The translations under genes and the position numbers were made by a program. Below are positions 11,211-45,014 of a stretch of DNA of 64,000 nt, one piece after another. The notes under the pieces were generated by a model. That model saw only the letters and a program-made list of their open reading frames with translations, was not told the DNA's origin and did no database searches. The stretch is from Tricholoma matsutake. Its lineage: Eukaryota > Basidiomycota > Agaricomycetes > Agaricales > Tricholomataceae. Positions within the stretch are counted from its first letter, which is position 1. The number at the start of each line of letters is the position of its first letter. The stretch is taken from positions 3,348,001 to 3,412,000 of the forward strand of contig AP026542.1 of NCBI GenBank assembly GCA_026075535.2, read 5' to 3'.

Positions 11211-11231
11211 CCCCTCAATGACATCAATAAT

Positions 11232-12797: not shown

Positions 12798-13079
12798 TAC
12801 CAAAACAGGGCAAGGCATGAAGGACACATGCAAACAAGGGATGACAGATGGCCAACAAGGCCAATACAAGCATCCATAGACAACTGCTTTGGAACTGCAA
12901 GAACGCAGGATAAAATGAATGACCATGACCAGCTGCAGGGCTGACACAATATGTGGTGGAGCAAACAGGACCCAAACAACCAGGATATAGGTCCAGTCCC
13001 ACAAAGAGACAATACCCCCCCTCAAATATGTCTAACCACTGCACAGGAAACAGACAACACACAATACACATCTGACAAC

Positions 13080-13510: not shown

Positions 13511-13514
13511 ATGA

Positions 13515-14085: not shown

Positions 14086-14099
14086 GTCTGCAACCCTCA

Positions 14100-15879: not shown

Positions 15880-15884
15880 CCTGC

Positions 15885-23389: not shown

Positions 23390-24304
23390 CTAGTACATCC
23401 CAGTAAAATCTTCAGGCTCTCCTTTGTCTTCTTCCCCCTCCCCATCCTCTACATCATCCATTTCAATGTTGTCCCACCCTTCCAAGTCAAGGTCTTCCAA
23501 ACACAGCTCTGGTTTGTCTGACTCATAACCCATGTCACTACCTCTGTCGTTGTCCTGTGCAAGAGACTCTCCCAATGCTTCCTGCAGCCCCAGACCTGGA
23601 GCCTGAGTTTCTTGGGCATCCTCAGTCAGATTGGAAATGCAGCCTGAAGTGAGTGCTGACTGATGTGCATGAAAGTGGCCAACACCCAGCCCCCAGTGGT
23701 AGCGCATGAGAAGATCCCTGTCAGAGAACCTAGGGGAACAGAATGAAATCAGAAGTAGCAAGTAAGCAATAAACACACCGGTTAACATAGTATTGATTGT
23801 AATCTTTACTATCCTTGGTGCAGCGCAAGATGCCAATCCCATCCGCTCGTCATTTTCCTTTTGCAAAGGCTGGTAAGATGTCACACCCATGCAGGACATC
23901 TTTCGGATCCACAAAACTGAAAGAACAATTTTCGTTCATAGGAGGGAAGCAGACAGAGTCTAGCTTGGAATTACTCCACCCTGAAGACCCTGGATTAACG
24001 ACCTCAAACCATCGCACCCACAAAAAATTGAAGCGGCGAGCTTCAAAATCATGCATGCCAGGCCCAGTATAGATCGCATTTATGTGATATCCACTGAGGA
24101 CCCGTGCATACAAGAAATGATGCAGATTCGAACTCTCCACATCATTGGCAAGAAGCATGATGTTACAATGAGATGTCCCTGGGTTAACAATGTCAGTCCC
24201 ACGCTGAACGTCATAAGTGGTAAAGTGGAATCGAATAAGCTTGTGGTGGTATATGCAGTCATTCTTCAAGAACACAAAATTGCATGCATTTCTGTCACAA
24301 CTCT
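23390..24304 (-). pseudogene. Plavaka transposase gene, 3' part, cut off by the 20.7-kb insert
   Basis: From 24,304 downward the frame reads ESCDRNACNFVFLKNDCIYH, then FTTYDVQRGTDIVNPGTSHC, ARVLSGYHINAIYTGPGMHD, FLWVRWFEVV and FVDPKDVLHGCDILPAFAKG. This is the conserved C-terminal part of Plavaka transposases. A stop follows, then RADGIGILRCTKDSKD, an intron of about 50 nt (GTGTGT to CCCCTAG, near 23,736-23,790), and the terminal FSDRDLLMRYHWGLGVGH with an acidic tail ending at 23,390. The 5' part of the same gene begins again at 45,015. Nothing of this gene lies between, so it was one gene before the insertion. Confidence 0.88.
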
Positions 24305-24407
24305 CAGTGACTTTAGACCATTATATATGGACTAACTAATGGTGGCTTTAGGCCATATTTAATGGTCCAGCTAATGTGGGCCCATAGACTGTAATAGACC
24401 ATAGAAG
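24305..24407 (+). repeat. Left terminal inverted repeat
   Basis: It begins CAGTGACTTTAGACCATTA and aligns without gaps to the reverse complement of 44,912-45,014 over about 103 bp, with some 18 differences by eye. It starts within the triplets that would continue the Plavaka frame, which marks the point of insertion. Confidence 0.8.
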
Positions 24408-24800
24408 ATGTGTGGGCTCATCTGGCAGGTATAAGTTCATTTAAATAGAATGGGCTCATGGGTGAAATAAGTAGAGCTTTATACCACATGTGATGGGTGG
24501 GCCCATGGGATATGTTAGTATTGGAATAGACCATAGATGATGGGTGGGCTTATAGGACATGAGGACTTAGCAGTAGACCATGGATGATGGGGTGGGCCCA
24601 AGTGTAATTTTGGGACTGGTATGGATCATGTATAATGGGTGGGCCTATGTGATATGTTAGCATTGGAGCAGACCATGGCTGATGGGTGGGCCTATAGGAC
24701 ATATTGAAGCAGTAGACTATGAATGTTATGGTAGGCCCATGTAGGTCATGTTAGCAGTGTATTAGACAATGAGATGAGGCTCTTACCATTGCTACATCTT
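24408..24800. repeat. Left subterminal repeats
   Basis: About six degenerate units of the form AGACCAT.GATGATGGGTGGGC(C/T)(C/T)AT follow the left inverted repeat. Related units in inverted orientation occupy 44,690-44,910. Subterminal arrays like this are binding sites for the transposase in several DNA transposon groups. Confidence 0.7.
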
Positions 24801-24884
24801 AGCCTTCCAAGAGACTACATGGTAGCAAATGCCCATATTACATATCAGCATCATAGATTCATAGTAGACCTTGAATATTTATTT

Positions 24885-25085
24885 GTCCTCTACTTGTGGC
24901 TGGATTGAACCATCGGGGTGAGTACATCAGGATTGAACCATCTCGGTGAGTAGATCTTGATTGGTCCATCGGGGTAAGAATGTCGGGATTGAACCATCAG
25001 GGTAGGTACATCGGGAGAAGATTGTTCCATTGATGTAAGTCCATTGTGTTGGAATTTCATTGAGGTTAGTACCATTGGAATTGGT
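24885..25085. repeat. Tandem repeat of about 30 bp
   Basis: Degenerate units with GATTGAACCATCGGGGTGAG and TACATC repeat six or so times. A reading frame through them (minus strand) is spurious. Confidence 0.65.
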
Positions 25086-25270
25086 TCATCAATGTGGGAA
25101 CATCAGATCAGAACATCAGTATATTTCCACTTTTCTATACTTTTGTTGGACTGTTCCAGCCTAATATATTTAAGTAGTGTTAGTGTCAGTGATAATATAA
25201 TTCACTCTGATGTACTCATTCCTGCTTCAAGCTTACATCCCAATATTGGCATTCATTAAAATAATGTAAA

Positions 25271-26586
25271 CTACAACTCAAATTTTGAATTGTTAGCTAC
25301 ATATGTCTTGAGGCAATCATGCAGTTGTTCAACACCAGCTGCAAGATATAACTCTGCTTCCAACAACCTGGAGAGCAGGATGGCCTGCTTTTCCTTTGCT
25401 GTTGTCCTTACCTCAATGCCTCTTATTGCCTCTCCACTTCCACTTTCCAAACCCAAATCCTTCATCAACTCCTCGATGCCAGGCCACAAGAGGAAGGAGC
25501 AGACTGAAGCCGCCGACTCTTCAATCATTCCTTCCCCCCAATCCTCTACTGCTCTCCCCTTTCCCTTCACCACTTTCCCAGATCCCAGCATGATGTCATC
25601 CACTTCCACTATCCCCACCATCTCCTGCAGATTCTCCTCCTCCACAAACTCCACGTCATCCGATTCATCGCCACCATCATCCCCCAGCTGGTCCACCTGC
25701 TCCTCTTCCTCAGTTTCTGGTTTGGGTGATCAATTGTCTTCAGAGGTTGGAGAAGGCGGTGTATGAGATCGTGGCCATTTCAGGGATGGCTGTTCCTCGC
25801 TGCATATTGTCATTCCGACGTCATAGTCAGGTGTAGAAGCAAAGTCGATGGGGTAGGAGGCTGGAGATGACAGAGTTTTCGGGATGGTGACAATTGGGGG
25901 TGTTGGTGGGTGAGGAATGAATACAGGCCTTGTCCTGAGAGGAAGAGGCGGGGGCAGCAATGGCAGTAATGGCAGTGGAAGTAGCGAATCCAACTTAACA
26001 TTTCCTTCCATAATTCCTTCCATCCGGTGCTTGTTTATAGTCGCCTGTCGTATGTGGAGTGGGGTTCCCTCCTCCAGTGGACTCTTGAACCTCACATGTC
26101 TATCATCACCCTCCTCAACATATCCACCAAGTGGAAGTGTGGGCGCCGGCATGCCATAGAATTGGGAAGATGGAATGAGTCCCCCCACAGAACCATCTTG
26201 AAATTGGGGATGGATAGCTGGCAGTCTCATCATGGCTATTGGAACCTGAGGAGGTGCCAGTGTTTCAGGGAGGGTGGAGGTACTGGTGACCATTGATCTG
26301 CTCAGTTTCAGATGAGTTCTCAGTTTTGAAGATGGCTGAAATCCAGAATGAACCATCGGAGGCTCGATTTCAGCAGTAGAAAGAGTTAGCGGAGCTGTGT
26401 TGGGGTTGGGGACAGCAGATGTACTGCCATCCGAAGATAAGTCCAACTTTCGACGCTTTGTCAGTCTGGATGAGGGTTGGTAGTCCGGCATAGAGGGAGC
26501 AGGTTGTTTTGATTTTGGGACCACCTGAAAACAATGTAATTACAACTAAATTAGTATTACAATTCACTTACCTTGATCTTTGGCAT
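25271..26586 (-). CDS. Low-complexity cargo protein, two exons, one internal stop
   Basis: The start ATG at 26,586 gives MPKIK (exon 26,572-26,586). A 47-nt intron (26,525-26,571, GTAAGT..TTTTCAG) joins it in phase to VVPKSKQPAPSMPDYQPSS. The protein is rich in Pro, Ser and Thr, has a basic TKRRKLDL motif that could be a nuclear signal, and after one TGA at about 25,728 ends in an acidic stretch and a helical segment (LSRLLEAELYLAAGVEQL). It lies head to head with the plus-strand gene at 26,767, some 180 bp away, so they may share a promoter. I do not recognise the family. A DNA-binding or accessory role is only a guess. Confidence 0.55.
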
Positions 26587-26766
26587 TGGAATATTGGTTT
26601 CGGGGATGTTCAAATTGTTTTAGTACACAAGTTCTCGATCAATCAATTGACTTACCATGTGGTTCCAATCAGATTCTCGCAAACAATACTGATCCAGTAC
26701 TTCAACATTGTTCACTCAATCAATTAACAATACTTTGCCCTTCAGCTTCAGATATCAACTCTGCAA

Positions 26767-29015
26767 ATGCCTTCCTACAATCAAGTTGCTGAATCTTACA
26801 TCAACGACATCCTCCCTTCCATTCAACGACATCTCCATGGATCCATCACAAAGGCCATCTTCGGAGGTGATGAAGATCTTTTACTACTCCTTCAAGAACT
26901 TCCAAACTCACCAGTATGTCTGTTAACTATCCAAATTTCATCCTATAACATATCATTTCTATCAAATCAGGGATTAAATACCCTCATTGGGCAACAGTTG
27001 TTGGTATGGATTGATGAGTGCAAGCTGGAGATTGTTCTTCTACAACATGGCTGAGGCTATACAGTAAATGAGGAAAAATTGAAGAGTTGGATTGTACGTT
27101 AACTCAATTTACCTGTCAATGAGTTTCTAACTGTACTTCCTAGTACACTACTTCATTGGGTGCTCAAGATGTACCAGAATGTGAGGGAGATGGCAGATAT
27201 GACTTTGTCCCATCTCGTCTGCTCATCAGCGCGGCGTTGCAGCTTGACCGAGCTGATACTCAAGGAACGGAAGTCGACTTTGGCAAGATAAAGCGGGATG
27301 ACCCCTTGTTGTGGTACCACACGATGCTTTCAGAGGAGGGCAGCAGTACTCGGGAGTGGTTTTCAGAAGGGCGTCAGACACCAGGTAGGTTTCACTCAGT
27401 TTAGCTTGAATTATCTACATATTGAATCACATATAGTACCTCGTGCAGTTCGGAACAGAGTAGCTGCCTCTATAATAAATCCAATCGTCATCCCAGGCAA
27501 CATCCAGATTTGTTCGAGGGATGAAATGTTGCAAATTATTCCCCCACCGCCCACTTCAACTGACCCGGCTTCAAGTCATTGTAGCATTCCTTTGGCCAGA
27601 ATGACAGTGGATCCATCAACACAATACCAGCTTTTGAAAATGACTCCCATGGGACAGAGGAGCCATTCACAGACTCGTATCAAAAGCAGTGAGTATGTGA
27701 ATGACTCTTCTGATGAGATAAAGGAAGAGGCCTGGTTGTAAGAAGCAGGAGAGAGAGGGCAGAGCAGGATGAAGAAGGTGGATGTTAAAGGAAAGCAGAA
27801 GGATACAGCAGAGGCGATGGATGTGGATTTGGAGGAGGTCGACCAGCCTGCGGAGGGGTCATCACAACCCTCAAGAAGATCACAACCCAAGGCAACAACG
27901 TCAAAATCAAGCATGAAGCCTGGAACAGAGACCATGCATCCGCCGAATTTGGGCAACACGGAGGCTTGTGCAAGGTGTGTGAAGCTGGAGGTGAGATGTG
28001 TGTATGCGGGCAACACTGCTTGTTTGTCATGTTGAGGTCGCAAGCAGAAGTGTACAAAGTTGTTGGGGAGTGGCAGACAAGAGGGAAAGCGACAGTGACG
28101 AAGGAAGGAAAGACACAGGTCATCAAGTCAGAACCAAGAGTAACCCCAACAACACCTGCATTGGGTGATGAAAACATGTTGGAACCCTCCCCATCGAACC
28201 CAAGCCTACGCTGATCAACCAGGACCCGAAGCACTTCAAGGCCACCTGAGGCAGCTAAGGCTTCATCAACCCCAAGCAGGGGATCAACGCCAAAGCCACC
28301 AGTGACACCAAAGAGAGGGACGACTTCAAAACCAACAAGGGCAGCAGTGGCGACACCAAAGGCGAAAGGAAAAGCAAAGCCAAGAAGTCGATCCAAGTCG
28401 AAATCCAGGAAGACGGATGAGGATGAAGCCATGTCAGATGGTGGAGAGACTTGCCGAGGGAGTCCAGGGGTGGTAACAGTGCATCCATTGGGGCAGGTAC
28501 CATCGGAGTACCTTTACTTCATAAATCGGAAAGGGGAACAGGTCAGTGAGGCTGTCCGAGTTGTCAACAATGGTGAGGCGAGTGTTGAGGGAAAAATGGC
28601 GATGGTGCAACAGCTTCAATAGGAGAATAACCGACTGACTAAGGAGGTCACAGAGATGCGAGAGGAGATGAGGAAGATGAAGGAGATGATGGTAGCAATG
28701 GAAATGAGCCAAAGGGTGCTTATCAGCAACCACAATGCCCATACTGCACTCCTGGAACAGCATCGGCAAACGTTGACCAAAGTCATGTCCCAACCTACAA
28801 TGCCCTCTGACCGCCGAACACCTGAGGATGGAGGTGCCATGGAGAGTCTCAGCATGCCACCATCCCGCTTTTCATCATCACCCTATCCCTCACATTCTAT
28901 GAACATTGTCCCATATCCCTCCCTTATCCCCCTAATGATTTCACATCACCCATTATCACTCCGAGGAGTTCAAGAGTCTTCAATGACATTATTCAGCCCA
29001 GCATGTTACAGCTGA
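26767..29015 (+). pseudogene. Zn2Cys6-like cluster protein with coiled coil, broken by stops
   Basis: Exon 1 (26,767-26,913) and a 57-nt intron lead to GLNTLIGQQLLVWIDE. A TGA follows at about 27,052, with further exons on to 27,740. At 27,930-28,060 comes CARC-VKLEVRC-VYAGNTAC-LSC-(stop)-GRKQKC, whose spacing C-x2-C-x6-C-x7-C-x2-C-x6-C fits fungal zinc binuclear clusters. A basic Lys/Ser/Arg stretch (28,300-28,410) and a coiled coil (ENNRLTKEVTEMREEMRKMK, 28,620-28,690) follow. The stops at 27,052 and 28,033 are TGA, with C-to-T at CGA as the likely cause. It was probably a DNA-binding protein of the element. Confidence 0.5.
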
Positions 29016-29505
29016 ACAAACTCAGGATTACACCAAGTCTGAATCCTTCCAGTCAGTATCATCGAACCTCTGATGCTGCAATGGAGGAAGAATGACCTGT
29101 TGTGGGACCATCGCATGCAGCTTTGGCGAGTGGACAGGATGTATGAGAGATGGCTTCACAAATGGTAGCCCCGGAGGTTGCATTGAATACCATGCCAGAG
29201 GTTGAGACTGTAGATGAGAGTGATGGCGCAATAACAAAGGAACAGGAGGCCGAGAGACCTAGGATGGTCATGCCCAGGATAATGGAATCTCCGGCATCAG
29301 GAATGGAAGATGAATAGGATAGAGATTCTTTTGCCATGGCAATCAACAAATCCGATGAAGAATTGGACAGGGATCGTCAGTATAACTGGGAAACATTACT
29401 GTAGTGTTAAAATGATTATTGTCAACAGCTTTGGTAAGATAGGCGTTCATGGATTACTGCATGCAAACTAGTACATAACTGAGGTGACAAAATGATGATG
29501 GGAGA
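29016..29505. other. No supported gene; possible 3' end of the previous gene
   Basis: Short frames continue the acidic, Met/Glu-rich character of the preceding gene (29,040-29,390), with stops. From 29,505 the 13-bp minisatellite starts. Confidence 0.35.
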
Positions 29506-30215
29506 AAACGACCCGACAAAATGACCCGACAACATGACCCGACAAAATGACCTGACATGATCTCAAGAAATGACCTGACAAAATGACCCGATGACCTGAC
29601 AAAATGACCCAACAAAATGACCTGACACAATGAACCGACAACATGACCCGACAAAATGACCCAACATTTTGTCGGGTCATCTTGTGTCGGGTCATCTATT
29701 GTCGGGTCACAATACTTATTTGATCAATTTGTCGGGTCCTTTAGTCAGGTCATTTTGTCACATCCTCAGGTTACTTGGCTAGGTGATCATTTTGTCGGGT
29801 CATTTGTCGGGTCATCTGGTGTCGGGTCATCTAGGGTGGGGTCGCTTTGGTCGGGTCATTTTGTTGGGTCATTTTGTCGGGTCGTTTTGTCGGATCATCT
29901 GGTCGGGTCATCTACTGTAGGGTCATCTGGTGTTGGGTCATTTTGTCAGGTCATTTTGTCGGGTCATTTTGTCAGGTCATTTGTCAGGTCATCTAGTGTC
30001 GGCTCGCTTTGGTCGGGTCATTGTGTCGGGTCATTGTGTCGGGTCGTTTTGTCGGTCGGGTCATTTACTGTCGGGTCATTTTGTTGGGTCATTTTGTCGG
30101 GCCATTTTGTCGGGTCATTTTGTCGGGCCATTTTGTCGGGTCATTTTGTCGGGTCATTTTGTCGGGTCATTTTGTTGGGTCGTTCTGTTGGGTCATTTTG
30201 TCGGGTCATTTGTCT
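29505..30215. repeat. 13-bp minisatellite (TGACCCGACAAAA), two head-to-head blocks
   Basis: 29,505-29,665 carries units as TGACCCGACAAAA, and 29,665-30,215 carries the complement (GTCGGGTCATTTT), so the array turns round at about 29,665-29,680, where ACCCAACATTTTGTCGGGT forms a hairpin. Variants swap GTCGGG for GTTGGG or GTCAGG. Long open frames in it (VGSFCRVILSGHF repeats) result only from a unit length that keeps stops out. A related array occupies 40,237-41,145. Confidence 0.9.
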
Positions 30216-30431
30216 ATAGTGAATGCTCAAAAATTCCAAACAAAGACCACTATGCTTGTCTGGATACTATTCTACATTTACATTTTCCTTCCCTTTTGTT
30301 TCTTCATCTCTGCCTTCTTTGGAATTATCTTTAAATTAGGCTGCTCACTTATTGGTACTGGTTTTTCATTTGTGTTTTGAGTAGACCGCCTTTGAGGGGG
30401 CTTCAAAACTGCAGGACATTTCAATTATTCA

Positions 30432-32518
30432 TCATCTTGGACAAAATAGACCAAGCTTACCCAATGACTGTGAATAAGCAGGTACATCGATAGAAACTTT
30501 TGGCTTCTTCTTCGGTGGTTCCTTTATCTTCTCAGCCAACCTCGATTTCATCACCTTTCCTTTCTGCATCATCTCTGGTTCTTGCTGATCCCCCCCATGA
30601 ATCTCATACTCATTTGTCGCAGTGTTGGCACTCTTCCCAGCATCCACGGCCCTACCAGTCTGTTTGCTTAAAGGTCGCATCGTACTCTTTTGAACAAGTT
30701 CCGTCGCCAGGCTGAGCTTCTGCCCTTTCCTAACTGGATGCATCTTGCTATTTCTGGAATTTCCTGTGATCAGAATTGGTGTCTTGCTTGGCCCGCCCTT
30801 CAGTTGTCCGGACTGCATTACATCTTCCTCTTCCGATGACTCCATCTGATCGACCAATGTGAAATCAAACACTTCACCCGATTCCTCAACCTCGTTTAAT
30901 GTGGGAGCCCTCCATTTACGCCTTCTTGAATCTGGAACAATATGGTCAGTCCACCTTTCCACAGGCTTCTCCACCCTCTTTTCCTTGCCTTTACCCTCCC
31001 TCTCACTCTTCTTGGTCCTTGGGCAGCTTGGGCGGCTTGGTGTTTTGGCATCGGAATCAGCATCGGAATTGGAATTGGAATTGGAATCATCTCTTGATCT
31101 CTTCTTTCCCTTCAATTTTTTGTCCTGATAGAATTTGAAACCAAAACCATCACTTTCCTGATTAGAGTACCAAAATGTCAAAATCTCCTTGATCTGGTGG
31201 TCCTTCATCCTCGATGGATCCATAAGCTTGAAACCATCAGGAACCTGATCCGCCCCAAAGTACTTATCTGCATCTTCAATGAACGACATCCAAGGAGGGA
31301 TTGCACGTTCATTACTGCAAGCCAGACCTGACAAGTCATCCGGGATGAGAATGAAAGAATGATTGCTGACCCACTCACAATATGCTGACCTGACATATGA
31401 CCTGATTAACACTTTCTTATCCATCCCTTTGCTCGGCCAGTCAGTCGGCTCAGGAAGCAATGGATTCCCATTGGCATCCGTATCCAACTGAACATATGGT
31501 TTTCGACTTGAGGTTCCAATAGGAACTTGGAACTTTGCTTCTTCAGCTGCAGCTAACAAAAGACAATTATTTTGAATCTTTCCGATGAGAAATTATCCAT
31601 TTACAATACATCTCCTTTGCATGCATGTTTAGAAGCCCCATGATTGGCTTGGTATCCCAATCTTTGTTTGCTTGGAAGAAAGACTTCCCTCCGAGATCTC
31701 CCATAAATTCATGCCTACAAAGAAAAAGGTTTAACTGGCAGAAACAAATTCAGACAGTGAACAGACTTAATGCATTTGTGACAAGTACTCCATTCACTTC
31801 CTTGTGGCATGTTAATACCAAACAGTCCATTCCACAAGACTTTTTCATTTGCTTGCAGAAGGACTTCACATGCTTATGAGCCTGTTTTGCATTCCTGTTC
31901 TGCATTAGTATTGATAATACCAATATTCAACGTGAATGACCTACCTTGCTTGCTCCTCAGCTGGGGGACCCATTTGATTCCATATATCGGCCAGGTCCTC
32001 CATCTTCCTTTTCTCTGCTTCCGATGTCTTCCCCCAAAGGTTACTCAACTCCTTCTGGTATGTGCCAAATGCCTTTTGATTGTCTGCCTTGCATGAAGTA
32101 TCTTCTACCCATCCACCCATTTTTCCTTGAATTGTTTCCTTTAACTCCCCTTTTGCCTGAACACCGAGAACCCTTCTACCCATCCATTTCTTGATCCCCT
32201 TAAATTTCTCAGATGATTCTCTAGTTCTTCCATATGTATGGAACCAAGCATATACACCCTGTTTAAAAATGCCCTGTTCAAAGGCATTGCAAAATACTTT
32301 CCAATTCATGAACTGACCTTCTTCCTCAACTCCTTATCTTCCCTAGACCAGTGGGGATTCTTTTTCTTCATTTCATCATAAACTTTCTGACCAATTCTGT
32401 TCCACTGTGAATGATCTCCCTCTCGCCATTGTTCCTTTCTGGCTTCTAGGATTTCCACATCTTCCCCTGTCAGCTTAAAGTGGACGAGTTTGGGAGGAAC
32501 ATGGGCTTCAGCTGGCAT
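30432..32518 (-). CDS. Multi-exon cargo protein, unrecognised
   Basis: The start at 32,518 gives MPAEAHVPPKLVHFKLTGED. The following exons, with GT-AG borders near 32,330-32,285 and 31,940-31,890, give KFKGIKKWMGRRVLGV, QKELSNLWGKTSEAEKRKME and a later MGDLGGKSFFQANKDWD. The last long exon (30,432-31,559) reads PYVQLDTDANGNPLLPEP, then WMSFIEDADKYFGADQVP and a long charged, Ser/Asp/Lys-rich tail. The middle region resembles proteins often seen near KDZ transposons in Agaricomycetes, but I know no function for them. The frame seems largely intact. Confidence 0.55.
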
Positions 32519-32599
32519 AGCATATAGTGATGTAATGTATGTGATGTGATGGTGGATAAGTGTATTTTTGGTGTTGTGGTATTGAAACAAGTACAAATC

Positions 32600-33400
32600 A
32601 GGATGCAGGGGAAATCATTTCATTATGGAATCAATTATACCGATCATTGTCGATCATGGTCGATCATGGTTGATCAATTTTGATCATTGTCGATCATTGT
32701 CAATCATTAATTAATCCATCGATCCTGAGTCTTGAAAAGCCCCTAATTGTATGAGTCCAGTCACTGATCACACATATTGACCAATATGCTCCAAGGAATG
32801 CTCAGAAATGCTCAGAAATCATATCAGTGATCATTTGGAGACCAATCTTTCAGTTTAATCAAACCACTTGTCAACTTTCTTTTTGTCACCTAGTATGAAG
32901 TCATATATTCGAGTCAGTTGGCATCACTTCTAGATAGTTTGGTTGTAAAAAGGCATAAGAAAAAAAGCACTGTCTAAATCATAAATCCCCATAATATACA
33001 TTCTTCAAAGATAAGATGAGATCATGAGGAACAAGTGTCGTTGGTTGTTTCATGGTTAGAAGTTTCTGATCTAATGTAAATTGTGGTTCGTACATCACCA
33101 TCTACTTATGTTCTGAACAAAGCAAAACTTGGAGTTTTTGAGTTAAAACCTTAAATTCTTAACATGTCTAACAATGTATTCAGAACTTATGGAGTTAGAA
33201 TATTGTACAAATGTCATTTGTGTGATAGACTTGATATGTCATGATCATGTAGTCATGTGATAGCCATTAAATCTCCCTACCATCTTCTTCAATACTACTT
33301 GAATACTACTACTACTACTACTACTAGCTTTGCATTCTTTGACCTGACATTTTGACCAGTTTTTTAATGTTTACCTGACTTTGTTGACTTGCACCTAACT
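32600..33400. other. Gene-free stretch with short repeats
   Basis: 32,636-32,712 has a degenerate tandem repeat of CGATCATTGT. 33,303-33,326 is a (TAC)n microsatellite. The stretch lies between divergent genes (30.4-32.5 kb minus and 33.5 kb plus) and may hold the left end of the nested Harbinger element, whose inverted repeats I could not identify. Confidence 0.5.
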
Positions 33401-33486
33401 ATCATGTGACTGAAAAATTTCCTTTTTTACAGAGGGTAACCTGCCAGCGGGTGCCAAAAGACTTCGTTCTCTGCCTCCCTCCCGCG

Positions 33487-34975
33487 ATGTCTCTAGGTTT
33501 CGATTATATGCCGATTGATAATCTACATCAACACATTCTTCACTATGCAGCTGCTGCTGTACAGATCCGTCTCCCTATCCTTATGGATGTGCTCCCCTCC
33601 ATCAATGCTGATGATGCCACAACATCTGAAGCAGTGAAGAGTCAAGCGAAGAAGTGGTCAGATCAAGAAATTGAAGACCTCGTTGCTTTCTTGTACAACC
33701 ACCGTTCTGAAGCCAGCTCTCCAGGGAACTTCAAGCCAGTTGTCTGGACAGCAGCTAAACTGCATCTTGACACCAAGCACCCACATTCTCTGCAAACAAT
33801 AGCTGCCATCAAAGCCAAGTTTACTATGGTGCGTGATATAATCATTCTACATCCTTTTCCTCCATTTTACCATTCTACTAGTACAAAGATATGTACAGGG
33901 TGGTTGAGGATTACTATGGAAGGTCGGGAATGGGTGCAATGCCTGCTGGATCAGGTATCTGGGCACAAACGAGTGCCGAGCTTCAACATTACAAGGATTT
34001 TGAGAAGAATTTAGGGAAGGAACAGGTACGTTCCTATTATATTGTTATTTTCATATGTATCTAACCTTCAAATCACAGAAAAGGTACTGTCGTCAGCTCC
34101 TCAATGCATCATTTCCACAATATGCGAAAATGCAAGCGATCATGGAGAAATCTATCACGAAAGGTCAATTTGCACACAGGGGCACTGCCCAAGCCCCTCC
34201 CAACCTCTTGATTGATGGGAATGGTGAGGTTAATGAGACTGGGCATGCTGCCCCTTCGTCTTCAGCCAGGATCATCTTTCCTGCCACACAAGATGGCTTG
34301 ACTTTCATGGATGTTGTTGATCCAGCCCTCCCATCAACGTTGTCACGTCCTTTACTAGGCCAACTACCTGCAACAGCCTCATCTTCACTCTCTATCCTAT
34401 CAGTCCCGACAACGACTCCATCCTCAGCCCCTCTTGCTTTGGCATTCTCACAGCCCCCTTCGCATCCCCTTACATCAGCATTCTCACAGCCCCCTGCTTC
34501 GGCATCTTCACATCCCCCTATGTCAGCATCCTCACATCCCCCTACCCCGGCATCAGCTCCTAGCATGCCCTCAGTGAAATCGAAGTCATCAGGAAAACGC
34601 AAACGGGCATCAGGGGATGATCACATGCCCAATCGGCCACCATCCAAAACTGCTTCAAAGCCACAATCAAGTGTAACGACATCGACGAAGACCAATACAA
34701 GCATCTCTGCTCTCGTTGGAGCAACTGGGGCCATCAACAATCTTAATATGACTATGCAACAAAGCCTGTTTCAATCGGATGCGCGGTGAATCGAGTTGGC
34801 AATGGAGCTGATCAAAAATGCAGACCATATTGATGATAATGAACGAGGTGCTCTTTCATTCTATTATAGCAATAATCCAAATGCTGCCGGTAGTCTCATA
34901 GCCATGTCTGATGTGCAGCGGGAAAATACATTGCATTATGCTCTCCAAACGATCTTGAAGCCAGCTGTATCCTAA
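33487..34975 (+). pseudogene. Myb/SANT-like DNA-binding protein of a Harbinger element
   Basis: From the start MSLGFDYMPIDNL (33,487), the first exon carries KKWSDQEIEDLVAFLYNH, then VWTAAKLHLD and IAAIKAKFTM. A GTGCGT..CTACTAG intron leads to YKDMYRVVEDYYGRSGMG, the end of a trihelix/SANT-type fold. A second intron (GTACGT..TCACAG, about 34,026-34,078) leads to a Ser/Pro/Ala-rich part with AFSQPP/SASSHPP repeats (34,440-34,550). The frame is open to a TGA at 34,787 and then continues with IELAMELIKNADHIDDNERG to a TAA at 34,973. PIF/Harbinger elements carry exactly such a Myb-like partner for their transposase, and that gene is next door in convergent orientation. Confidence 0.75.
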
Positions 34976-35037
34976 ATTTTTGTACACTAACTGTACTGTA
35001 CACTGTATTACTCTACATCTGTATTGTACAAAAATTC
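34974..35037. terminator. Inverted repeat between convergent Harbinger genes
   Basis: AAATTTTTGTACA (34,974-34,986) is mirrored by TGTACAAAAATT (35,025-35,036). It spans the stop codons of the two convergent genes. It could mark shared 3' ends, but a polyadenylation role is only an inference. Confidence 0.3.
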
Positions 35038-36384
35038 ATCAACATCGTCACTGGCCTCGCATTCTCGCAAAATTGCCTGATAGCTATTCCACATTGACTG
35101 TGCAATCTTGTTTCGCTGACCCGCAACCACCCCATTTGGGTTGTTGTCTTCTACATTGCTGGCTTGTTGCACAAAGCCATCACCAGTGTGGCCACCTTGG
35201 TTTGGGTATTCTTCACTTGCAAGTTCTTCTTTGTGATGATCATGAATGTGAATAAAACTATGTATAGCACACAATGCTGCCGGAATTTGTGCTTGGATTG
35301 TCATGTCATATTCTGGGCCAATCAAAAGTATGCGAAAGTGCTTCTTGAGAACTCCAAAAATGCGCTCGATTACATTTCTTGCCTGAGCATGACGCAAGTT
35401 GAAAAGCTCCTCCTTATTTTGTGGTCTGGACATTTCATGAATTTAGGCATGCCTTATACTGAAAAACACAAACATACCGTAATGAGGCATGCCCCCATTC
35501 AGCAAGATGATAACGGATGCTGCAGTAGGGAACAAGAAGCTCCTTGCAATGTGGGAAGCCTGCATCGGCAAGGAGATACAATCCCTCAGGTACAATTAGA
35601 TCATCAGAGATCGCACTTTCATAAACTCAGGCATCTGATGCAGAGCCCTCCCATCTGGTAAGGACATATGTGAAAAGAAGATTGAACAAACAACTGAACA
35701 AGCAGTTCTGTGATATGAAGCCCTTCTGGTTGCGCCACGCTTCATGATACTCAGCATGAGCAGTGGCATGGATGTGGCTACCATCGATTGCCCCAAGGGC
35801 AGATCGGAGAAAAGGCCATAATTTCGGATTGTTGAAAAGTCTTGATGAAGGTGGATCATTGGGGGATATTTGTTTTATGTATTTGGAATTGAAAGGAGCA
35901 AATGCAAAGATATGAGCCATTTTATGGAAGTATCTGTGAACCTATGAGTCCAAAATGATGATAGCAGAAATAAATGAATTTTTTACACAGATATCGTCTT
36001 GGGAGCATGTTGAAACCTTTCCTCAAGATGGCGGATAGGAAGACCAGTGACACAACAATATAGAAAAATAGCAAGATGCTCTTCAAGAGTGATGTACTTG
36101 GAATCCCCATGGCCCATCCCTCATAATTCAGACACGAGAGCCCTGAAAACTTGCTTATTCATTCCAAGAGCTGTGTGAATGCACTTCGGATGACCATGGA
36201 GTAGTTCATTGACCCAAGCCTGCCCTGTGAGAATTGACATGTAATATGGCTCCTTGAAATAATACTGCTGTATAATCTTCAAGGTTTCAGGAATGACAAT
36301 GTTGACGATCAGAACAACAAGTTGCTGAGCAATTTGAGCAAAAAGCTCTTGCTGTGAGGAATTTTGCTGATGGGGAGGAACCAT
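35008..36384 (-). pseudogene. PIF/Harbinger DDE transposase
   Basis: The first true methionine (MVPPHQQ, 36,384) starts the protein. Motifs in order are YITLEEHLAIFLYCCVTG, APKTIS|VHRYFHKM across a 47-nt intron (35,942-35,988), FLRSALGAIDGSHI (first catalytic Asp), FTYVLTRWEGSASD, VPEGLYLLADAGF (second Asp), then across another intron HASLRPQNKEELFNLRHA, and ARNVIERIFGVLKKHFRILL (third acidic residue, Glu). This is the DDE_Tnp_4 architecture. Two in-frame stops (about 36,123 and 35,627-35,629) are both TGA. At the latter, arginine (SDARVYE) is expected. Otherwise it is complete and forms a pair with the Myb/SANT gene. Confidence 0.85.
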
Positions 36385-36549
36385 GGTGATGATTTGCACA
36401 TTTCATTGGAATGCTCTCGAAATACTATCATAGGCATCTATCGATCAGTCGATATCGATAATCACGAAGTGATCCATTAAGAGCTATGAGTGAATGAATT
36501 TCTTCAGCACCACCGGCAGGTCTGAATTGCCCTGGGACCCTCGCATCCG

Positions 36550-39500
36550 ATGATTGATGGTTATTCAGCAGTTCACACAAGCAACCAACATCTCATGCCT
36601 ATCAAAAAATTCAATCCTAATCTCAGAAATATAGCCAGTGGTGACACTCTAATTATCAGCACTACCAGCCATTACACAGCTCGAGGCCTGGTGAAGAAGA
36701 TGAAAGTTAGCAAGCAAAATTCACACTCCTCCATGTCCCCATCCAAGTCCCCTTCCAAACCTATCAAAGGATTGACTCCCTCGGTTTCAGTTGAAGATGA
36801 ACAAAATATTAACTTTGACAATGTGCTCTTAGAACCCCTCCAACTTCCAAAGTCTAAGGTGAGAGCCTTACCCATTTGGCCCTCGATACCTTTTTGACCT
36901 TTTGTATTCAGTCACAAAATGACTACATGAGGGATTACCTGCATAAAAGGAAGTTCTATTTAGCACGTATTCTCTCATCTGAGGTGCCTCCGATCAAGAT
37001 GCTTTGCAGCAGCTGTGGGTCATCAGGAGACTGGCATTGTTTGGACTGTCTTGGATGTCTGATGTTTTGCAAGGACTGTTGTCAGAAGGCTCATCGGAAC
37101 AACCCCTTTCACAAGATTCAACACTGGGAAAATGAGTACTTCAAAGATTCCACCCTTCTACAGGCCGGTCTTACCCTTCACTTCGGTCATGGTGGGAAGC
37201 TATGCCCCTCAAACCCCAGTGATGACTCCCACCAAGAAGAGGGTGAGGATGAACGGCTGTTTGGCCTTCCTGATCTCCCATCCGAGTTATTGGATGATGA
37301 TGATGACCTCGAGTTTGGCTCAGTTCCTTTCTCTCAAATGGAATTGGAAGATGATGGATCATTGCTGGAGAGAGATGTTAGGGATAAAACTACCTATGCA
37401 AAGAATGTACTAGTCATCATTCATAGCAATGGTGTCCACCATCTTCTGATCCAATGGTGCAGGTGCCCTGGACACATACCTGATGATATACAGGCCCTTG
37501 ATCTGCACTTCTTCCCTGCCTCCTTCAAGCAAGTCAAGACCTTGTTCACATTTGAAGGTCTAGATTCCTTCCTTGCCGAAAACCAGGAGTGCAAATCCTC
37601 TGCTTGGCATTACTACCAGAAGCTGAGGAGATTTACCTCCACATGCTTTCCCGAAACTATTCCAGTAAGCTCCATCCCACCAATTGAAATACTGATCATC
37701 ACAACACTGATACTCATGTAATCTGCCAGGACCGATATCGGGAACTTCTCCGATGTACAAGGCAATTCTGGAACCTCAAACATCTGAAGTGGCATGGATT
37801 TGGGCATAATGTTGAAAGTCCAGGACTCGGGGATCTCGCTGTCCTTTGCCCCGCCTGTCCACAGGTTGGGATTAATTTGCCCGAAGATTGGAAGAATGAT
37901 GAAGAACAGCAAGCACTACTTTTACACCAAGTCCCCGATAAACACTAAAGATATTTTAGATGGGTTTATACTCGGTCTTTTGCCATTGATGGGAATTTTA
38001 CAGCTTCTCATCAACGTCAGAAATGACCCGAGGATGACGTGCCACTGACAAATGGCCAGAGCTTTATGACAGAGAGCTCAGATTATAAAGCTCACCTCAA
38101 GATAGCCAGGGAATTCAAGCAGCCTCCCTGTACATGCAACGAGTTCAAAGCTGATCGGAATGTCAATGTTGCTGGCTATGATGCAACTGGTATCAGATCG
38201 GTGGTTTGTCTTCGGCATGGATTTTTTCAACCTGAGGCCACCATTGACTTTCAAAAAGGAGAGCAGTAAGTCTCTTCCCATCACGAATCCTCAATTTACA
38301 AGCCCTTTCATCTGAGTTTACAGGCAGAAAAACATCGACTATGCAATTTGTAAAGCCCTGAACAGCAAGATGATGAAGGGGATCAATCGATTGCTACTCA
38401 TATACGACATCTTTTGTCAGTGGATAATCAACTTTCACCTCCAAGTGAATCAGTCACCCTTTCTGTCTATCCCAGAAGGTCTTAGGATCACAGGAGCGAT
38501 CGGGGACTTTCATGTGGTAGGACACGTTGATGATTGCCTTCCTAGATATACATTGGTGTATGTGCCAGGGAGTGGTGTAATTGATGGCGAAATTGTGGAA
38601 ACTTTGTGGGCTGTCTTGAACGAAACATCCCGAAGTGCCAAGAGTGCAACTATGGCCCATCGGAATGAAATTCTGGATGACCACATGAATCACTCGAACT
38701 GGAAAAAGCTAATTGGCATGAGTAAATGTCTCATCATCCTTCCCCTACACTGAATATTGACTGTGTTACTCAATGTAGAATCATCGTTGGTTTGGAAGAT
38801 GAAACGGGCAATGAATTTGTTGAAGGGGTTGGAAGAATCCTATAAGAAACTGACTGAGTCAGCGGCACCAGCATATTTAGAAGCTTGGAGAGAGGGTGAG
38901 ATGACGGCGCAACAAAATAGGGATGAAAATGTCAAGAGTATGGATTACTATGCCCTGAAATGCAAACAAGGTACTGTCCTCTTCATTTCTTATTTCCAAT
39001 CTCCTGAACTCAAGCATTACCTGGATCAGCCCCAGGTAAAGCCGAGATGCAGTTACAATTGAGCTGAGAACAGCCTTCAGGCAAAGTCTCTTCAGTGGAA
39101 TTCCTTTTGGAAGGGATCTCAATTCAAGAGTCTCAGTAAGCATTTAGTAAAGCTATTGTCAGCATTTTCACTCCTTTCTTGGGATAGGCTGTCATTACAA
39201 AGTTACCTGAGACAGGTTGGTGGTGTCCTGACGATGACCAAGCAAATCGAAATTACTAAGAAACGAAGTTGGCTTCTCACAAGAATCTTGGATCATCAGA
39301 GGAAAGCAAATCACTTTCTCCGACCTGACTCATCATCGGAAAATATCAGTTCCTCCTATGAACCCTCCAAAGTCTTCGTCACTGATGACGATGGTGAGAT
39401 TGATCTAATCTCTTGCCCTGTTTCATCCAACCCATTCAATGATGTGGGACCGGGGAACAGGCCTGAGACTTCCATCATTGCATTGCCATCATCTCTGACT

Positions 39501-40218
39501 GCCAAAGCAATCAGAGAGAGAGGGCTGGTGGAGCTGGCAAAGCTTGAGACAGAACTTCGGAGTGGGCAGTGCAACGACAACCTCAAAGGGATCAGGCTCA
39601 TGCTGGGAAAGAAAGCTTTCTTGTTCATTATGAAGATCCGACTCAAGGGACCTAAAACAGGAAAAACAAAATCTTGGGATGGTATTCACTCTACCGACCA
39701 GGCCTTACGACTCTATGCTCAAAACTATCGGGCTGGTAGGGAAGCCCTGGTGTCATTGGGAGCTTCAAAAGAAATGCTAGATCAATTCCAAATCCTTGAT
39801 CAGAGCCATCTAAAGACGAGTACTACATTGATAAACCCAAAGGAGTCTGGATGGAAGCATGATTCATTGCCATGGTTCTGGTATATGGATGTCGAGGGTG
39901 ACAGTTTGTCATCTAATTATATGAAAGAATGTGAGTGGATGAAAGATTGACTGATGTGTAAAACTAAAGATATATATGTAGTTCACCAGGTGAACTGGCT
40001 GAGAGCAAAAGCAGCATTTGAATGAGCGACGGAGGAAAACACCCTTGTTCAGTATGAGATGAAATGGACAACAGCATACTTCAATCATCAGGAGGAAGAG
40101 AAAAGAGGCTGATTACTCTCATGGACATAAGATCTATGCTGCACAACAGGAGGCGATGTGGGAGGATTTTGCTGATACAGCAAGGAAGTCATTTATTAGA
40201 TTGGGGGTGAATATTGAT
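36550..40218 (+). pseudogene. KDZ transposase with CxC2 cysteine cluster
   Basis: An N-terminal Ser/Lys-rich region precedes a cysteine cluster (CSSCGSSGDWHCLDC, CKDCCQKAHRNNPFH), the CxC2 module of Kyakuja-Dileera-Zisupton transposases. Then come DLHFFPASFKQVKTLFTF, CPACPQ, and the catalytic parts: SFAIDGNFTA (first Asp, about 37,987), LLLIYDIFCQW (second Asp, about 38,400) and VIDGEIVETLWAVLNE (Glu, about 38,585). The C-terminus has KGPKTGKTKSWDG and VNWLRAKA..YEMKWTTAYFNH. At least six introns of about 50-65 nt fit. Stops occur at about 37,947 (TAA) and 38,024 (TGA). The catalytic signature is intact, so it died recently or the stops reflect errors or missed introns. Confidence 0.85.
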
Positions 40219-40236
40219 TAGAGTAGTAGTACATAA

Positions 40237-41145
40237 GTGTCCCGACCCGACACTAGATAACCCGATGAAATGACCCGACAAAATGACCCAGCGAAATGGC
40301 CAGATAAGTATTCCGACCTGACACTAGATGACCCGACACTAGATGACCCGATAAATGACCTGACAAAATGACCCGACAAAATGACCTGACAAAATGATCA
40401 GATGCAATGACCTGACAAAATGACCCAACAAAATGATCACCTGACAAAATGACCCGATGACCGGACAAAATGACCCGACAAAACGACCCAACACAATGAG
40501 CCAACACCAGATGACCCGACACTATGACCCGATAAAACAAGTCGTTTATTGGGTCATAGTGTCAGCTCATCTGGTGTTGGCTCATTGTGTTGGGTCATTT
40601 TGTTGGGTCATTTTGTTGGGTCATTTTGTCGGGTCATTTTGTTGGGTCATTTTGTTGGGTCATTTTGTTGGGTCATTTTGTTGGGTCATTTTGTTGGGTC
40701 ATTTTGTTGGGTCATTTTGTTGGGTCATTTTGTTGGGTCATTTTGTCGGGTCATTTTGTTGGGTCATTGCATCGGGTCGTTTTGTCGGATCATCTGGTCG
40801 GGTCATCTACTGTCGGGTCATCTGGTGTCGGGTCGGAATACTTATCTGGCCATTTTGTCCCGACACCAGATGACCCGACACAATGACCCGACAAAATGAC
40901 CCGACAAAATGACCTGACAAAATGACCCGACAAAATGACCTGACAAAATGACCCGACACCAGATGACCCGACACCAGATGACCCAACAAACCGACAAAAT
41001 GACCCGACAAAATGACCCGACAAAATGACCCAACAAAATGACCCAACAAAATGACCCGACAAAATGACCCAACAAAATGACCCGACACCAGATGACCTGA
41101 ATACTTATCTGGCCATTTTGTTGGGTCATTTTGTCGGATTGATCT
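40237..41145. repeat. 13-bp minisatellite, second array, several inverted blocks
   Basis: Blocks alternate in orientation: TGACCCGACAAAA units at 40,245-40,540, the complement (mostly GTTGGGTCATTTT) at 40,545-40,855, the first orientation again at 40,857-41,095, and a short reversed piece to 41,145. GAATACTTATCTGGCCA lies at or near three of the turning points (about 40,300 in reverse, 40,840 and 41,100). It begins directly after the KDZ gene. The unit is the same as at 29.5-30.2 kb. Confidence 0.9.
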
Positions 41146-41406
41146 CACTTTCATTTTGCAGGGTGGTTTTATATTGTTGTAATCGTTTCACATACATTCA
41201 AATATCTTTCATGGTCCAAATGTAAATAATGATTATCCAATATATAATTCCATAGGTAAGCCTCTCTCCATTATCTCAAATCATCCTGTATAGCTGCCCG
41301 AATACTAGCCACTCTTGTTTGACTCTCCAACATGTTTCGATATCCTGCCATCATAGCAGGTAGGAGTTCCCTTGGAAGTATAGGATGGTGTTGCCTGGTG
41401 GTTTCA

Positions 41407-42847
41407 TCACCAGTGATGTTCTAAGATGATCACAATGAGCATTGTCCAGTTACATTTAAAATTAAATCCAAGATGAAGAGGATCACTCACAAATTCTCTA
41501 TGTGCCTGAAGTGCTTGCTCCAGACTCATACCCCACTGGTTGTTCAAAGATATTGAGAACCAGGGCTGTCTTTTCTGGCCACTAGTGGTGGGATGTTCTT
41601 GTAAGTAATTAGAATGCAATCCTCTAATCTTTTCAAGGAGTCCAAGGAGCTCTTCTTCTGCCTTGACAATATGATGCATTTGCTTATAAACTTCTGGAAC
41701 TATAATGTGGAAACTCTTCAGATAACATTTCCCCAGGAATTGTCAACCCGCAGCCTGTCCGATTTTGGAAAACCGAATGAAATGACAGCTCCCATTGGTT
41801 CACTTACCGATTCTTCTCTAATCATTTGCAGATATTGCAATTTATGCTCCGTTGAATGATTACTATCGGGACAGATTGCTGCCATGAACAAACTCTGTGA
41901 GCAGAGAAGATCCATGAATTCCTGTGCTTCGGTGTTGTTCGAAAAGGGGAAATCAATGACACCTTCATGGATAAATGCTGGCAATACATTCCAGTTGATG
42001 CTCATGGTTGGTGATTTGACCACAAGTAAATATATCCAATGTTGATCGTTACATAAGTTGCATAGCCATAAGCAGACTTCCAATCATCAAGACTCCATTA
42101 TCTACTTTTGATCACCGGGTTAAAGGCAAGGTAAGTCGGACTGGACATTCCACATTGGAGACCTCCTCATCATCTACATCTTCCCTTTCTATCAAGAGCT
42201 CTCCCACAGCCACATGTACCATTCCCAATGCCAGCAACGAGTCCTGCTGACTTTGGCTGACATCAAGCAAAACCTTGATCAGAAGGAAGGGGCAATTTCA
42301 TTGACACCTGGCCCCACCTGTTATCAATAAAAAATATTATCATTCTAGTATCTAATAATGAGATGTAGTGCTACATACCACGTTCTGGAATCTTGGTACA
42401 TCTGGGAAAAGGTCTGGATTGATGACCATGGGAGTACTGATGATCCACCAAGGATCGAGGTATGGTTCCACAATCCTTGTCAAGTCGATGTCGGTAGTAG
42501 CCTCCCTGAGCGACAAAAGGCTTCCCTTGAATGTGCCGATGTCCGAACTTGATACATCCATGACCAAGGAGTGCAATCTTTTTTGAAAAGGGGTGAGATA
42601 AAGGAACTTGTTCTCAAGGATCATCCATCCAAGTATAATTTCCAGAATCCCCTAACACTGGATAAAAATGTAGTTATGTAGGAGTAATGCAACTTACAAG
42701 TTCTTGCTTCATCCTGGCTTTCCAAATATGATAATACTCATTGAGACCCGACTGACGATGAGGCTGTTTAGCTTCAAGTGTCACTGCTCTAGCCTGGGAG
42801 CAGAGATAATCAACAACTGCCTGGCATGTTACTTTCGGAGCACTCAT
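41407..42847 (-). CDS. Multi-exon cargo protein, unrecognised
   Basis: The start at 42,847 gives MSAPKVTCQAVVDYLCSQAR, then EYYHIWKARMKQEL and an intron. The exon 42,352-42,624 reads FLYLTPFQKRLHSLVMDVSS and YLDPWWIISTPMVINPDLFP. Further exons down to 41,407 contain LPAFIHEGVIDFPFSNN, LQYLQMIREESVSEP and WFSISLNNQWGMSLEQALQA. The exon order is consistent, and short introns with GT-AG borders can be placed, although the segment 42,090-42,340 is unclear. It is head to head with the TET/JBP-like gene, 304 bp away, which suggests a shared promoter. No known domain was recognised. Confidence 0.5.
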
Positions 42848-43150
42848 TGTCGGGAGTAATGATAGATATTGATGAGAATGATTAGAGAAATCAACATCTA
42901 TCATTGATTGCTTATCGGTATCGGAGATCAAAGTCACTGATGATGTTCAGATGATGTTCATAGATGAAAGATAACATCAATCGGGATCAGGATCGGGATG
43001 GACAACAATCACAGCGACATTTCATTTCACTGGACATTCTTGACAATTGGAATGTCAGATATCAGATTGATTTGAGTGATCAGTAGATAAAGGCCCCTCT
43101 GATTTATATAAATACAATCTGTTGTCTATGTCAGATTCATCAGATTCAAC

Positions 43151-44530
43151 ATGTCATTACCATCTAACTCGCCTTTCTTCTTGACTGACACTGTTTCGGA
43201 CTACCTCCGAGCCCGATTTTGGTGGGTGATTTCAAGGAAGCTCCATGAGAATCAGAACGTTCCCGATCTTGCAAAGATGAAGGCAATTTGGCCGATCTAT
43301 AACCAAGAGAATCCTGGCCCACTTCCTCCACTTTCACTATCAGTTCAACTTGCAGTTGACTGTGAACAAATGGCAACAATGGCAGCTGATGCTTATTGCA
43401 ATAGAAGTAATATTTAGATTTTGTCAATTTGAAATTTCTGGCTAAATGATTTCAGTGAAATTCGATGATCTTGATGTGCAAAGATACGACTCAAACATGT
43501 TATCAAAGAGACCGACTGGTCAGAATGACTCCAAGGAGGATTCCTTGATCGTGACAAGCCGTTATGGTGGACAGAGACTACTTACCCAGCCGATCATTGT
43601 CCTAGACATGCATGAACGGATCCTACTTTGGTTCCTGCCTGGCATCCTGAGCCCTGAAAGACAGGTGAGAACTTGTTGATGTAATAATACCCCCCTCTGA
43701 TTCATTCGACTATCACTTGGCTTGTAGAGAATTCTTTGGGAGGCTGCACTGAAGATGGATCAATCTCTCAGAGGATCTCTTACTCTGAATCCGACTCGCA
43801 CAAAATGGCGTTCAGATCCTCAATATTATAAATCTCCTGGAAAATGTCAGCCTTATCCTGGCAATATCAATCTCTTGCCAGCTTGGTTCCAGCAAGCACA
43901 CAATGTAAGTTGAAGGTTTTTATATTTCAGGGCCTTTAATTCTATCTTCTGATTGTTCTAGACTCCTAAATTCAAGCCCGAGATTTCAAAGACCTTGAAG
44001 GCAAGATCGGAGAACCTGAACACACTTGGATGGCTGAAAGAAACTTCGGAATTGTTCGCACTGATGGGTGCCTTGCTCAGCATTGTTCATCCTGAACTGT
44101 ATGAGATTGGTCGGGGGGTGCTGAAGAAGGTGGGAGATTCTCCGGACATGGTAAAGGATGGTGAGGAGGTGCTAGAGGTTTTACAGCTGTGGACAACACC
44201 TTTCTCAGGATATGGTTTGATCAGTAATTGCATCACCCTATGCATCGGGACAACAATTCCCAAGGCTCATGGTATGACTGTTTAACGACCATCGGAGATT
44301 ATGAAAAGGGAGCTTGGTTGAAACTCAAGAACCTTGGATTGGAGCTGGATTATCCTTCGGGAACAATGGTTTTCCTGCTGGGAAAGGTAATCCGACATGG
44401 AATTTCAGAGATTAATGGGAACTGGGTATGTATTGCCCAATATATGAGGGATAATGTTCATGAGAGGATGAGGATGAGATCGCCTGAGTGGACGACAGTG
44501 ACCAAGACTTTCTCATCTGTGCCAGTCTAA
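43151..44530 (+). pseudogene. TET/JBP-type 2OG-Fe(II) dioxygenase with a frameshift
   Basis: Four exons fit: 43,151 to about 43,406, then MKFDDLDVQRYDSNMLSK to SPERQ, then RILWEAALKMDQS to LPAWFQQAHN, then TPKFKPEISKTLKARSENL onward, joined by GT-AG introns of about 50-60 nt. The catalytic domain has HRDNNSQGSWYDCLTTIG (H-x-D iron ligands), GTMVFLLGKVIRHGIS (distal His) and VCIAQYMRDNVHERM. This layout fits the TET/JBP group, which oxidises 5-methylcytosine or thymine in DNA. Two defects stand out: a one-base loss just before HRD at about 44,243, and tryptophan (TGG, 44,423-44,425) where the 2-oxoglutarate-binding arginine is expected. The protein is probably inactive. Confidence 0.75.
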
Positions 44531-44689
44531 AATTGGAAATACAAATCATACTGGGTGACAAATGAACTTTTGTATGGTTATCTTCTGATGTAATGATGTG
44601 GAGCTAGCACTTCAACATATTTTGACCAGCATGCCCAACAGAGAACATAACCTTTGAAGGATGCCATGCACCAATACATGTGACCTTGG

Positions 44690-44911
44690 GGAGACCCTTG
44701 TGTGTCTTCCTTTGACCCATGGGCCCATTCATCATATGGTCCACTGCAGTATTAATATATATAACCCATGGGCCCATCCATCATATGTTCCACTATAGTG
44801 TTGACATGACCCATGGGCCCATTCATGACAAATGGCCTATAGCAGTACTCATATCACCCATAAGCCCATCCTATTTCCATGACCTTATATCTACCACATG
44901 AGCCCACTTAT
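44690..44911. repeat. Right subterminal repeats
   Basis: Four units of about 47 bp start (T/A)(C/A)ACCCATGGGCCCAT. In reverse complement they match the left subterminal units (GGGTGGGCCCATGGG). Confidence 0.75.
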
Positions 44912-45014
44912 CTACTATGGTCTGTTATAATCCATGGGCCCAGATTAGCTGGACCATTTCAAACAGCTTAAAGCCACCATTAGTTGGTCCATTTGTAATG
45001 GTCCAAATACACTG
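44912..45014 (-). repeat. Right terminal inverted repeat
   Basis: On the minus strand from 45,014 it begins CAGTGTATTTGGACCATTA and matches the left repeat at 24,305. The Plavaka frame runs up to it as DGNSPFS. Confidence 0.8.

Follow-up and report, generated by a model that had tools for sequence, protein, structure and literature searches.

The window analysed here, 64,000 nucleotides of the Tricholoma matsutake genome (C5:3348001-3412000), contains an element of about 20.7 kb in which a KDZ transposase gene and a TET/JBP dioxygenase gene lie together with six other genes between inverted ends (Table 1). The open frames arrange these eight genes in four divergent pairs, A-/B+, C-/D+, E-/F+ and H-/G+. 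The gene models are approximate and were built from open frames, partly by eye, and the Pfam scans reported below covered the pieces that are listed. The initial annotation, made from the letters of the window, had claimed the element as a whole mobile unit, and this claim was followed up in a 13-contig genome of 161,040,721 bases.

Table 1. Features of the element and its immediate flanks; positions are those of the window
Feature	Position	Strand	Basis or remark
Whole mobile element	24296..45023	+	20,728 bp; end motifs, pairing, duplications, empty sites
Left target-site duplication, TTTCTGT	24289..24295		flank comparison
Left terminus, CACAACTCT	24296..24304	+	identical in 33 of 34 paired copies, the other having TACAACTCT
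Left subterminal inverted repeat	24304..24535	+	232 nt, 78% complementary to right arm
Gene A	25274..26539	-	open frames; no Pfam match above cut-off in pieces scanned
Gene B, with Cys-rich stretch near 27.95-28.03 kb	27742..29012	+	open frames
13-bp tandem array, unit TTTTGTCGGGTCA, both orientations	29464..30224		repeat analysis
Gene C	30435..32518	-	pieces ~30435-31592 and 31944-32333, upstream to ~32518, by eye
Gene D	33388..34786	+	Myb/SANT resemblance very weak (E 0.13, below cut-off)
Gene E, PIF/Harbinger-type DDE transposase	35011..36384	-	DDE_Tnp_4 E 5.3e-07 on last piece, passing cut-off; weak on two others
Gene F, KDZ transposase in several exons, with CxC2 cluster	36595..39947	+	start by eye
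Second 13-bp tandem array, unit TTTTGTCGGGTCA	40229..41113		repeat analysis
Gene H, tentative, multi-exon, divergent from TET gene	41410..42946	-	open frames by eye
Gene G, TET/JBP dioxygenase	43151..44527	+	1-bp deletion in window copy relative to other copies
Right subterminal inverted repeat	44784..45015	+	232 nt, 78% complementary to left arm
Right terminus, AAGGGGCTG	45015..45023	+	identical in 32 of 34 paired copies, the other two having AAGGGGCTC and AAGGGGGCTG
Right target-site duplication, TTTCCAT	45024..45030		flank comparison

A 35-nt motif taken from the left arm was used to search the whole genome, and three mismatches at most were allowed. The motif matched 104 places, while the reversed pattern, used as a control, matched none. 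The 100 listed places comprised 60 ends of the left type (0-1 mismatch) and 40 of the right type (3 mismatches), and six right ends from another search brought those used for pairing to 46. The data showed that at least 34 of the 60 listed left ends had an inverted right end in the proper orientation within 60 kb. Inverted pairs 10-30 kb apart with common cargo had been predicted, and 28 of the 34 pairs spanned 16.8-29.1 kb (17 of these 19.1-22.0 kb), with two others at 7.1 and 12.0 kb and four at 34-58 kb. A further pair, C1:401056-423557, came from comparing two lists of ends and is counted neither among the 34 nor in the flank comparisons. Ten copies, including that of the window, were read as whole sequences. 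Relative to the 20.7 kb of the window copy, two of the nine others covered more than 20.2 kb, five covered 13.0-16.7 kb and one 4.4 kb, and the aligned pieces were mostly 88-97% identical.

The flanks of all 34 pairs placed the outer limits 9 bp farther out on either side than the previously proposed 24305 and 45014, and hence the element in the window extends from 24296 to 45023. The claim of defined ends was thus upheld, including the inverted arms, while the two coordinates were rejected. The imperfect arms begin 8 bp inside the ends, leaving the outermost 8 bp outside them. The termini are of the CA..TG type in 33 of the 34 pairs, the 7.1-kb derivative having TA..TC. In the window copy, the two longest stretches without CpG are formed by its ends, 24296-24913 and 44494-45023. 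Together they hold no CpG in 1,147 positions, where 51.7 would be expected from base composition and about 20 from the rate in interior non-coding sequence (0.39). The element ends consist largely of repeats of about 45-49 bp, so that their CpG-free letters are not independent, and in several other copies the first CpG lies closer to the left end.

The flanking sequences of the 34 pairs carried a perfect 7-bp duplication in 29 cases, one with 6/7 identical positions in two, with 5/7 in two and with 2/7 in one. The standard right terminus is present in 32 pairs, of which 27 matched at length 7 and none at any of the lengths 4-6 and 8-11. An 8-bp duplication, which is the length described for Zisupton (PMC12730594; statements on cited papers refer throughout to the accessible portions of their text), was accordingly shared in 0 of these 32 pairs, and the length of 7 bp also differs from the 0-, 2- or 3-bp duplication of PIF/Harbinger (PMC12730594), as far as the whole element is concerned. 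When left and right flanks of different pairs were combined as a control, 2 perfect matches were found among 1,122 pairings, which is as expected, because two copies on C1 share TTAGGGA. The 7.1-kb copy, in which little is left except the ends and array-like repeats, and the 12-kb copy at C6:3406801 both lack the KDZ gene and both have a perfect duplication, as expected for movement in trans. The latter derivative (C6:3394847-3406801) contains the left end, an array, the H and TET region, a nested long terminal repeat (LTR) retrotransposon, which was named by eye from open frames and direct repeats, and the right end.

Sites without the element were also found. A 700-nt query made by joining the flanks of the window copy matched elsewhere in the genome across the junction at 40 of 40 scored places (the best 40 of 52 candidates), with an identity of 83-96%, and 37 of these matches extended from query positions 1-7 to 698-700. 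Four such paralogous empty sites were read, and they carried TTTCTGT (two), TTTCCGT and TTTCCAT at the target position. The Pfam scan of two open frames of the repeat that hosts the window insertion gave no match. The window itself contains, at 3726-4424, 2543-3000 and 8408-8829, paralogous empty sites of two other family copies: the joined flanks of C3:13329643 match the first of these regions over 700 columns at 92%, and those of C3:10766937 match the second (query 1-461 of 700) and the third (query 39-461) across the junction. Hence both paired ends and sites lacking exactly the element exist, the absence of which had been named in advance as grounds for giving up the mobile unit. Paired ends could alternatively reflect segmental duplication of a chromosomal region, and two copies on C1 (C1:12404489-12425575 and C1:18975019-18996082) do have identical immediate flanks and the same duplication, as such an event would give. 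In the other pairs, however, the immediate flanks differ, and the 7-bp duplications together with the empty sites at joined flanks led us to reject this explanation, the probability of which appears negligible. The genome contains dozens of copies of this large element, which moves as a unit; the window copy is one of them.

To describe the gene content of the family, five internal probes (gene B, gene C, the Harbinger-type gene, KDZ and TET) were searched in the genome, and the best 40 of 55-72 candidates were scored for each. The data showed that 199 of the 200 scored places lay in the family, that is, on the same strand and no more than 60 kb inward from a family end. The shares were 40/40 for gene B, for the Harbinger-type gene (72 candidates) and for TET (59 candidates), and 39/40 for gene C, whose place at C9:713408 was the single one outside the family. 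The search with gene C returned 41 rows, of which one (C7:10682551) belonged to a place that had been counted through another piece, and 40 were used. At least 15 of the 34 pairs hold all five probes. These data support the earlier proposal that the element explains the spread of TET genes, since genes of this type multiplied here by riding on the transposon.

Gene F has Pfam matches to KDZ on two exons (E 7.8e-26 and 1.7e-07) and to CxC2 (E 2.1e-20). The catalytic residues and the CxC2 cluster of the initial annotation are indeed present, but a TGA at 38024-38026 interrupts the frame of the window copy, which means that the KDZ gene described as intact is broken there; at this site, one other copy has CGA, two have CAA and one has TGA. 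The TET/JBP assignment of gene G was borne out. Its two halves gave Tet_JBP matches of 1.8e-06 and 5.5e-06, each below the curated cut-off, and the domain of another copy had CcTET (7vpn) as its best PDB match (E 4e-19), with the HRD motif aligned. This match, rather than a tree, suggests that the gene belongs to the AG type. The deletion in the window copy leaves 568 nt in a stretch that mostly has 569 nt in other copies, and the catalytic frame was open in two of the four other copies examined.

The remaining genes are less easily named. The protein called Zn2Cys6-like is gene B, which has a Cys-rich stretch, but the Pfam scan of its frames gave no match. Scans of the pieces of gene C and of gene H likewise gave no match above the cut-off. 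Gene C has seven relatives in a large protein set, at up to 66% identity, and gene D has six; all are nameless or labelled hypothetical, and a scan of viral contigs for the gene D relative P0010 found none. One of the three proteins previously regarded as unrecognised is gene E, a DDE_Tnp_4 (PIF/Harbinger-type) transposase that belongs to the family at all 40 scored places. Gene H was beyond the earlier gene list and is likely from open frames judged by eye. The two 13-bp arrays sit between convergent gene ends and have one CpG per unit, with observed/expected ratios of 0.95 and 0.80 compared to about 0.4 in the rest of the element.

To describe the decay of the copies, each was compared with a majority consensus of up to nine copies, itself included and the 7.1-kb copy excluded. 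The window copy had transitions at 81 of 626 CpG positions and at 51 of 8,116 other C/G positions, and in the nine copies the respective ranges were 7.8-25.5% and 0.6-3.1%, an 8- to 22-fold difference. This excess of CpG transitions would be the mark of past methylation. Very strong CpG depletion (observed/expected 0.08-0.22 per 4-kb step) was also seen outside the element, at window positions 1-16000. Of five copy-specific in-frame stops that were examined (genes A, B, E and F), four are CGA in at least one other copy. Besides the KDZ stop described above, the window copy has a TGA at 25730-25732 in gene A (CGA in 6 of 6 other copies covering the site), a TGA at 36121-36123 in gene E and a TGA at 28212 in gene B (in both cases CGA in one or more of the other copies), and a TAG at 28620 in gene B, where 5 of 5 other covering copies have TGG. 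Other copies bear stops of their own. Given its stops and the TET deletion, the window copy has probably lost the capacity for autonomous movement, although its ends are whole.

The ratio of non-synonymous to synonymous changes between the two subfamilies was 0.23, 0.26 and 0.35 for KDZ exons, 0.27 for gene C and 0.40 for gene A. The counts were thin for the second piece of gene C (1 synonymous, 2 non-synonymous) and for gene H (3 and 7). Gene E, with 2 synonymous and 8 non-synonymous changes, showed no sign of purifying selection, and together with its neighbour D it could represent a Harbinger transposon that nested in the KDZ element long ago and became trapped there, instead of a working part of it, a reading that we slightly favour. 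This would agree with the Nuwa-type Harbinger families, which encode a transposase and a Myb/SANT protein (PMC12730594), given the very weak Myb/SANT match of D, and with the giant KDZ elements of Ectocarpus, in which nested insertions are fixed among copies (PMC12477816). On the other hand, comparison of the sequences around D and E (32.4-33.5 against 35.9-37.4 kb) gave one weak 15/20 inverted match and no clear terminal repeats. All of the 40 scored matches of gene E lie in the family and were at least 94% identical, the gene was wholly or partly covered in 7 of the 9 other copies read, in both subfamilies, and its start codon and the likely KDZ start are, as judged by eye, divergent and some 0.2 kb apart.

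A similar question arises for the TET gene, which could be a passenger without use to an element whose copies are spread by the KDZ transposase alone. This seems unlikely, even though the frameshift in the window copy, the catalytic frame being open in two of the four other copies examined, the lack of visible purifying selection on TET between the subfamilies, the strong CpG decay despite TET, and the perfect duplication of the 7.1-kb derivative, which has neither TET nor KDZ, would all be in line with it. That all 40 scored TET places lie in the family argues against a mere passenger, as does the fact that TET genes were acquired by 11 transposon lineages (PMC12730594).

With fixed ends CACAACTCT..AAGGGGCTG, long imperfect inverted repeats, 7-bp duplications, paralogous empty sites and a common gene set observed directly, the element in the window is very probably a large cut-and-paste DNA transposon of the Kyakuja type (KDZ), present here as a decayed copy, with a TET/JBP dioxygenase gene and other genes as fixed cargo. 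Several observations weigh against this interpretation. Among the ends listed, 26 of 60 left and 12 of 46 right ends were unpaired; some of these arise from incomplete lists, and the pair counts are lower bounds. All the empty sites are paralogous and not allelic. The duplication of C5:186399 is absent, and that of the window copy is imperfect (5/7). For the latter, the simplest reading would be an original TTTCCGT, in which CpG changed to TpG on one side and to CpA on the other. The duplication of C2:3893167 (GGAACAG/GGAATGG) shows the same pattern, and the two sides of that of C7:8882945 differ as CACAAGC/CACGAGC, while CpG change does not account for the mismatches at C8:6561803 (TATGGTG/AATGGTG) and C5:186399. 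Stops at 37946, 38751 and 39060 between the open KDZ pieces occur in every copy covering them, and they are taken for putative introns. Purifying selection between the subfamilies was unseen, among few changes, for TET (1 synonymous, 4 non-synonymous), for the Harbinger-type gene, for B (4 and 14) and for D. Finally, the placement in Kyakuja is suggested by the ends and the duplication length rather than by a tree.

The closest known systems come from Laccaria bicolor and further Agaricomycetes: these are the TET-carrying Kyakuja families, which have 7-bp duplications and 5'-CA..TG-3' ends (Kojima 2025, PMC12730594, December 2025), and to whose TET proteins CcTET is close (PMC12730594). The element described here resembles them in its KDZ transposase, its CcTET-like gene, its duplication and its ends. 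It may differ in its 232-nt imperfect repeats, which leave the outermost 8 bp free, as two Laccaria families are stated to be without terminal inverted repeats, and it differs in its extra genes, as further genes are unmentioned for Kyakuja in that source (PMC12730594). The mobile KDZ1 element of Cryptococcus neoformans also has long inverted repeats (241 bp), but it is about 11 kb long, makes an 8-bp duplication and has CxC1 instead of CxC2, with a TET gene unmentioned (PMC12810828). Comparable in size are the giant KDZ elements of Ectocarpus, which reach 30.3 kb, and a 31.7-kb KDZ element of Chlamydomonas, and those of Ectocarpus also have extra genes, fixed nested insertions and a transposase that is often a pseudogene; in contrast, these are elements of algae, and TET cargo is unmentioned for them (PMC12477816). 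Starships of Ascomycota are likewise large fungal elements with cargo, but they use a tyrosine recombinase and reach about 700 kb (PMC12134995).

These comparisons bear on novelty. The unit of KDZ, TET and cargo that had been put forward is real, but its novelty is smaller than it looked, because TET-carrying Kyakuja with defined ends are already published (PMC12730594), as are algal KDZ elements that bear extra genes and measure about 30 kb (PMC12477816). Among the papers listed by the literature search, none dealt with this family in T. matsutake; neither KDZ nor Kyakuja occurs as a word in the accessible text of PMC6980582, PMC10211490 and PMC10627285, and Tricholoma has 0 occurrences in that of the main text of PMC12730594, a count to which Table S1 and the sequence data do not belong. 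The family thus appears to be a new, large, high-copy member of the TET-carrying Kyakuja, unusual in its subterminal inverted repeats and its fixed Harbinger-type gene.

As to how the transposon might work, the KDZ transposase, acting in trans where a copy lacks the gene, would recognise the ends and make 7-bp staggered insertions. The host would methylate CpG in the copies, and CpG transitions would then decay them, with stops arising at CGA codons. The TET enzyme would fairly likely oxidise 5-methylcytosine and so counter silencing. A more elaborate model, which we put forward tentatively and with some doubt, is that of a modular transposon with two transposases, in which eight genes form four divergent pairs, with the CpG-rich 13-bp arrays placed between two of these modules. 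Here the Harbinger-type DDE protein and its partner would be resident and would share a short divergent promoter with KDZ, and TET would remove the methylation that erodes the copies.

The family provides a whole, high-copy, TET-carrying transposon in one chromosome-scale genome, with its ends, duplications and paralogous empty sites defined, and in it the multiplication of TET genes within a mushroom genome can be seen directly. It also makes testable the question of whether a transposon-borne TET protects its carrier, as methylation, CpG decay and the state of the TET frame can serve to rank dozens of similar copies.

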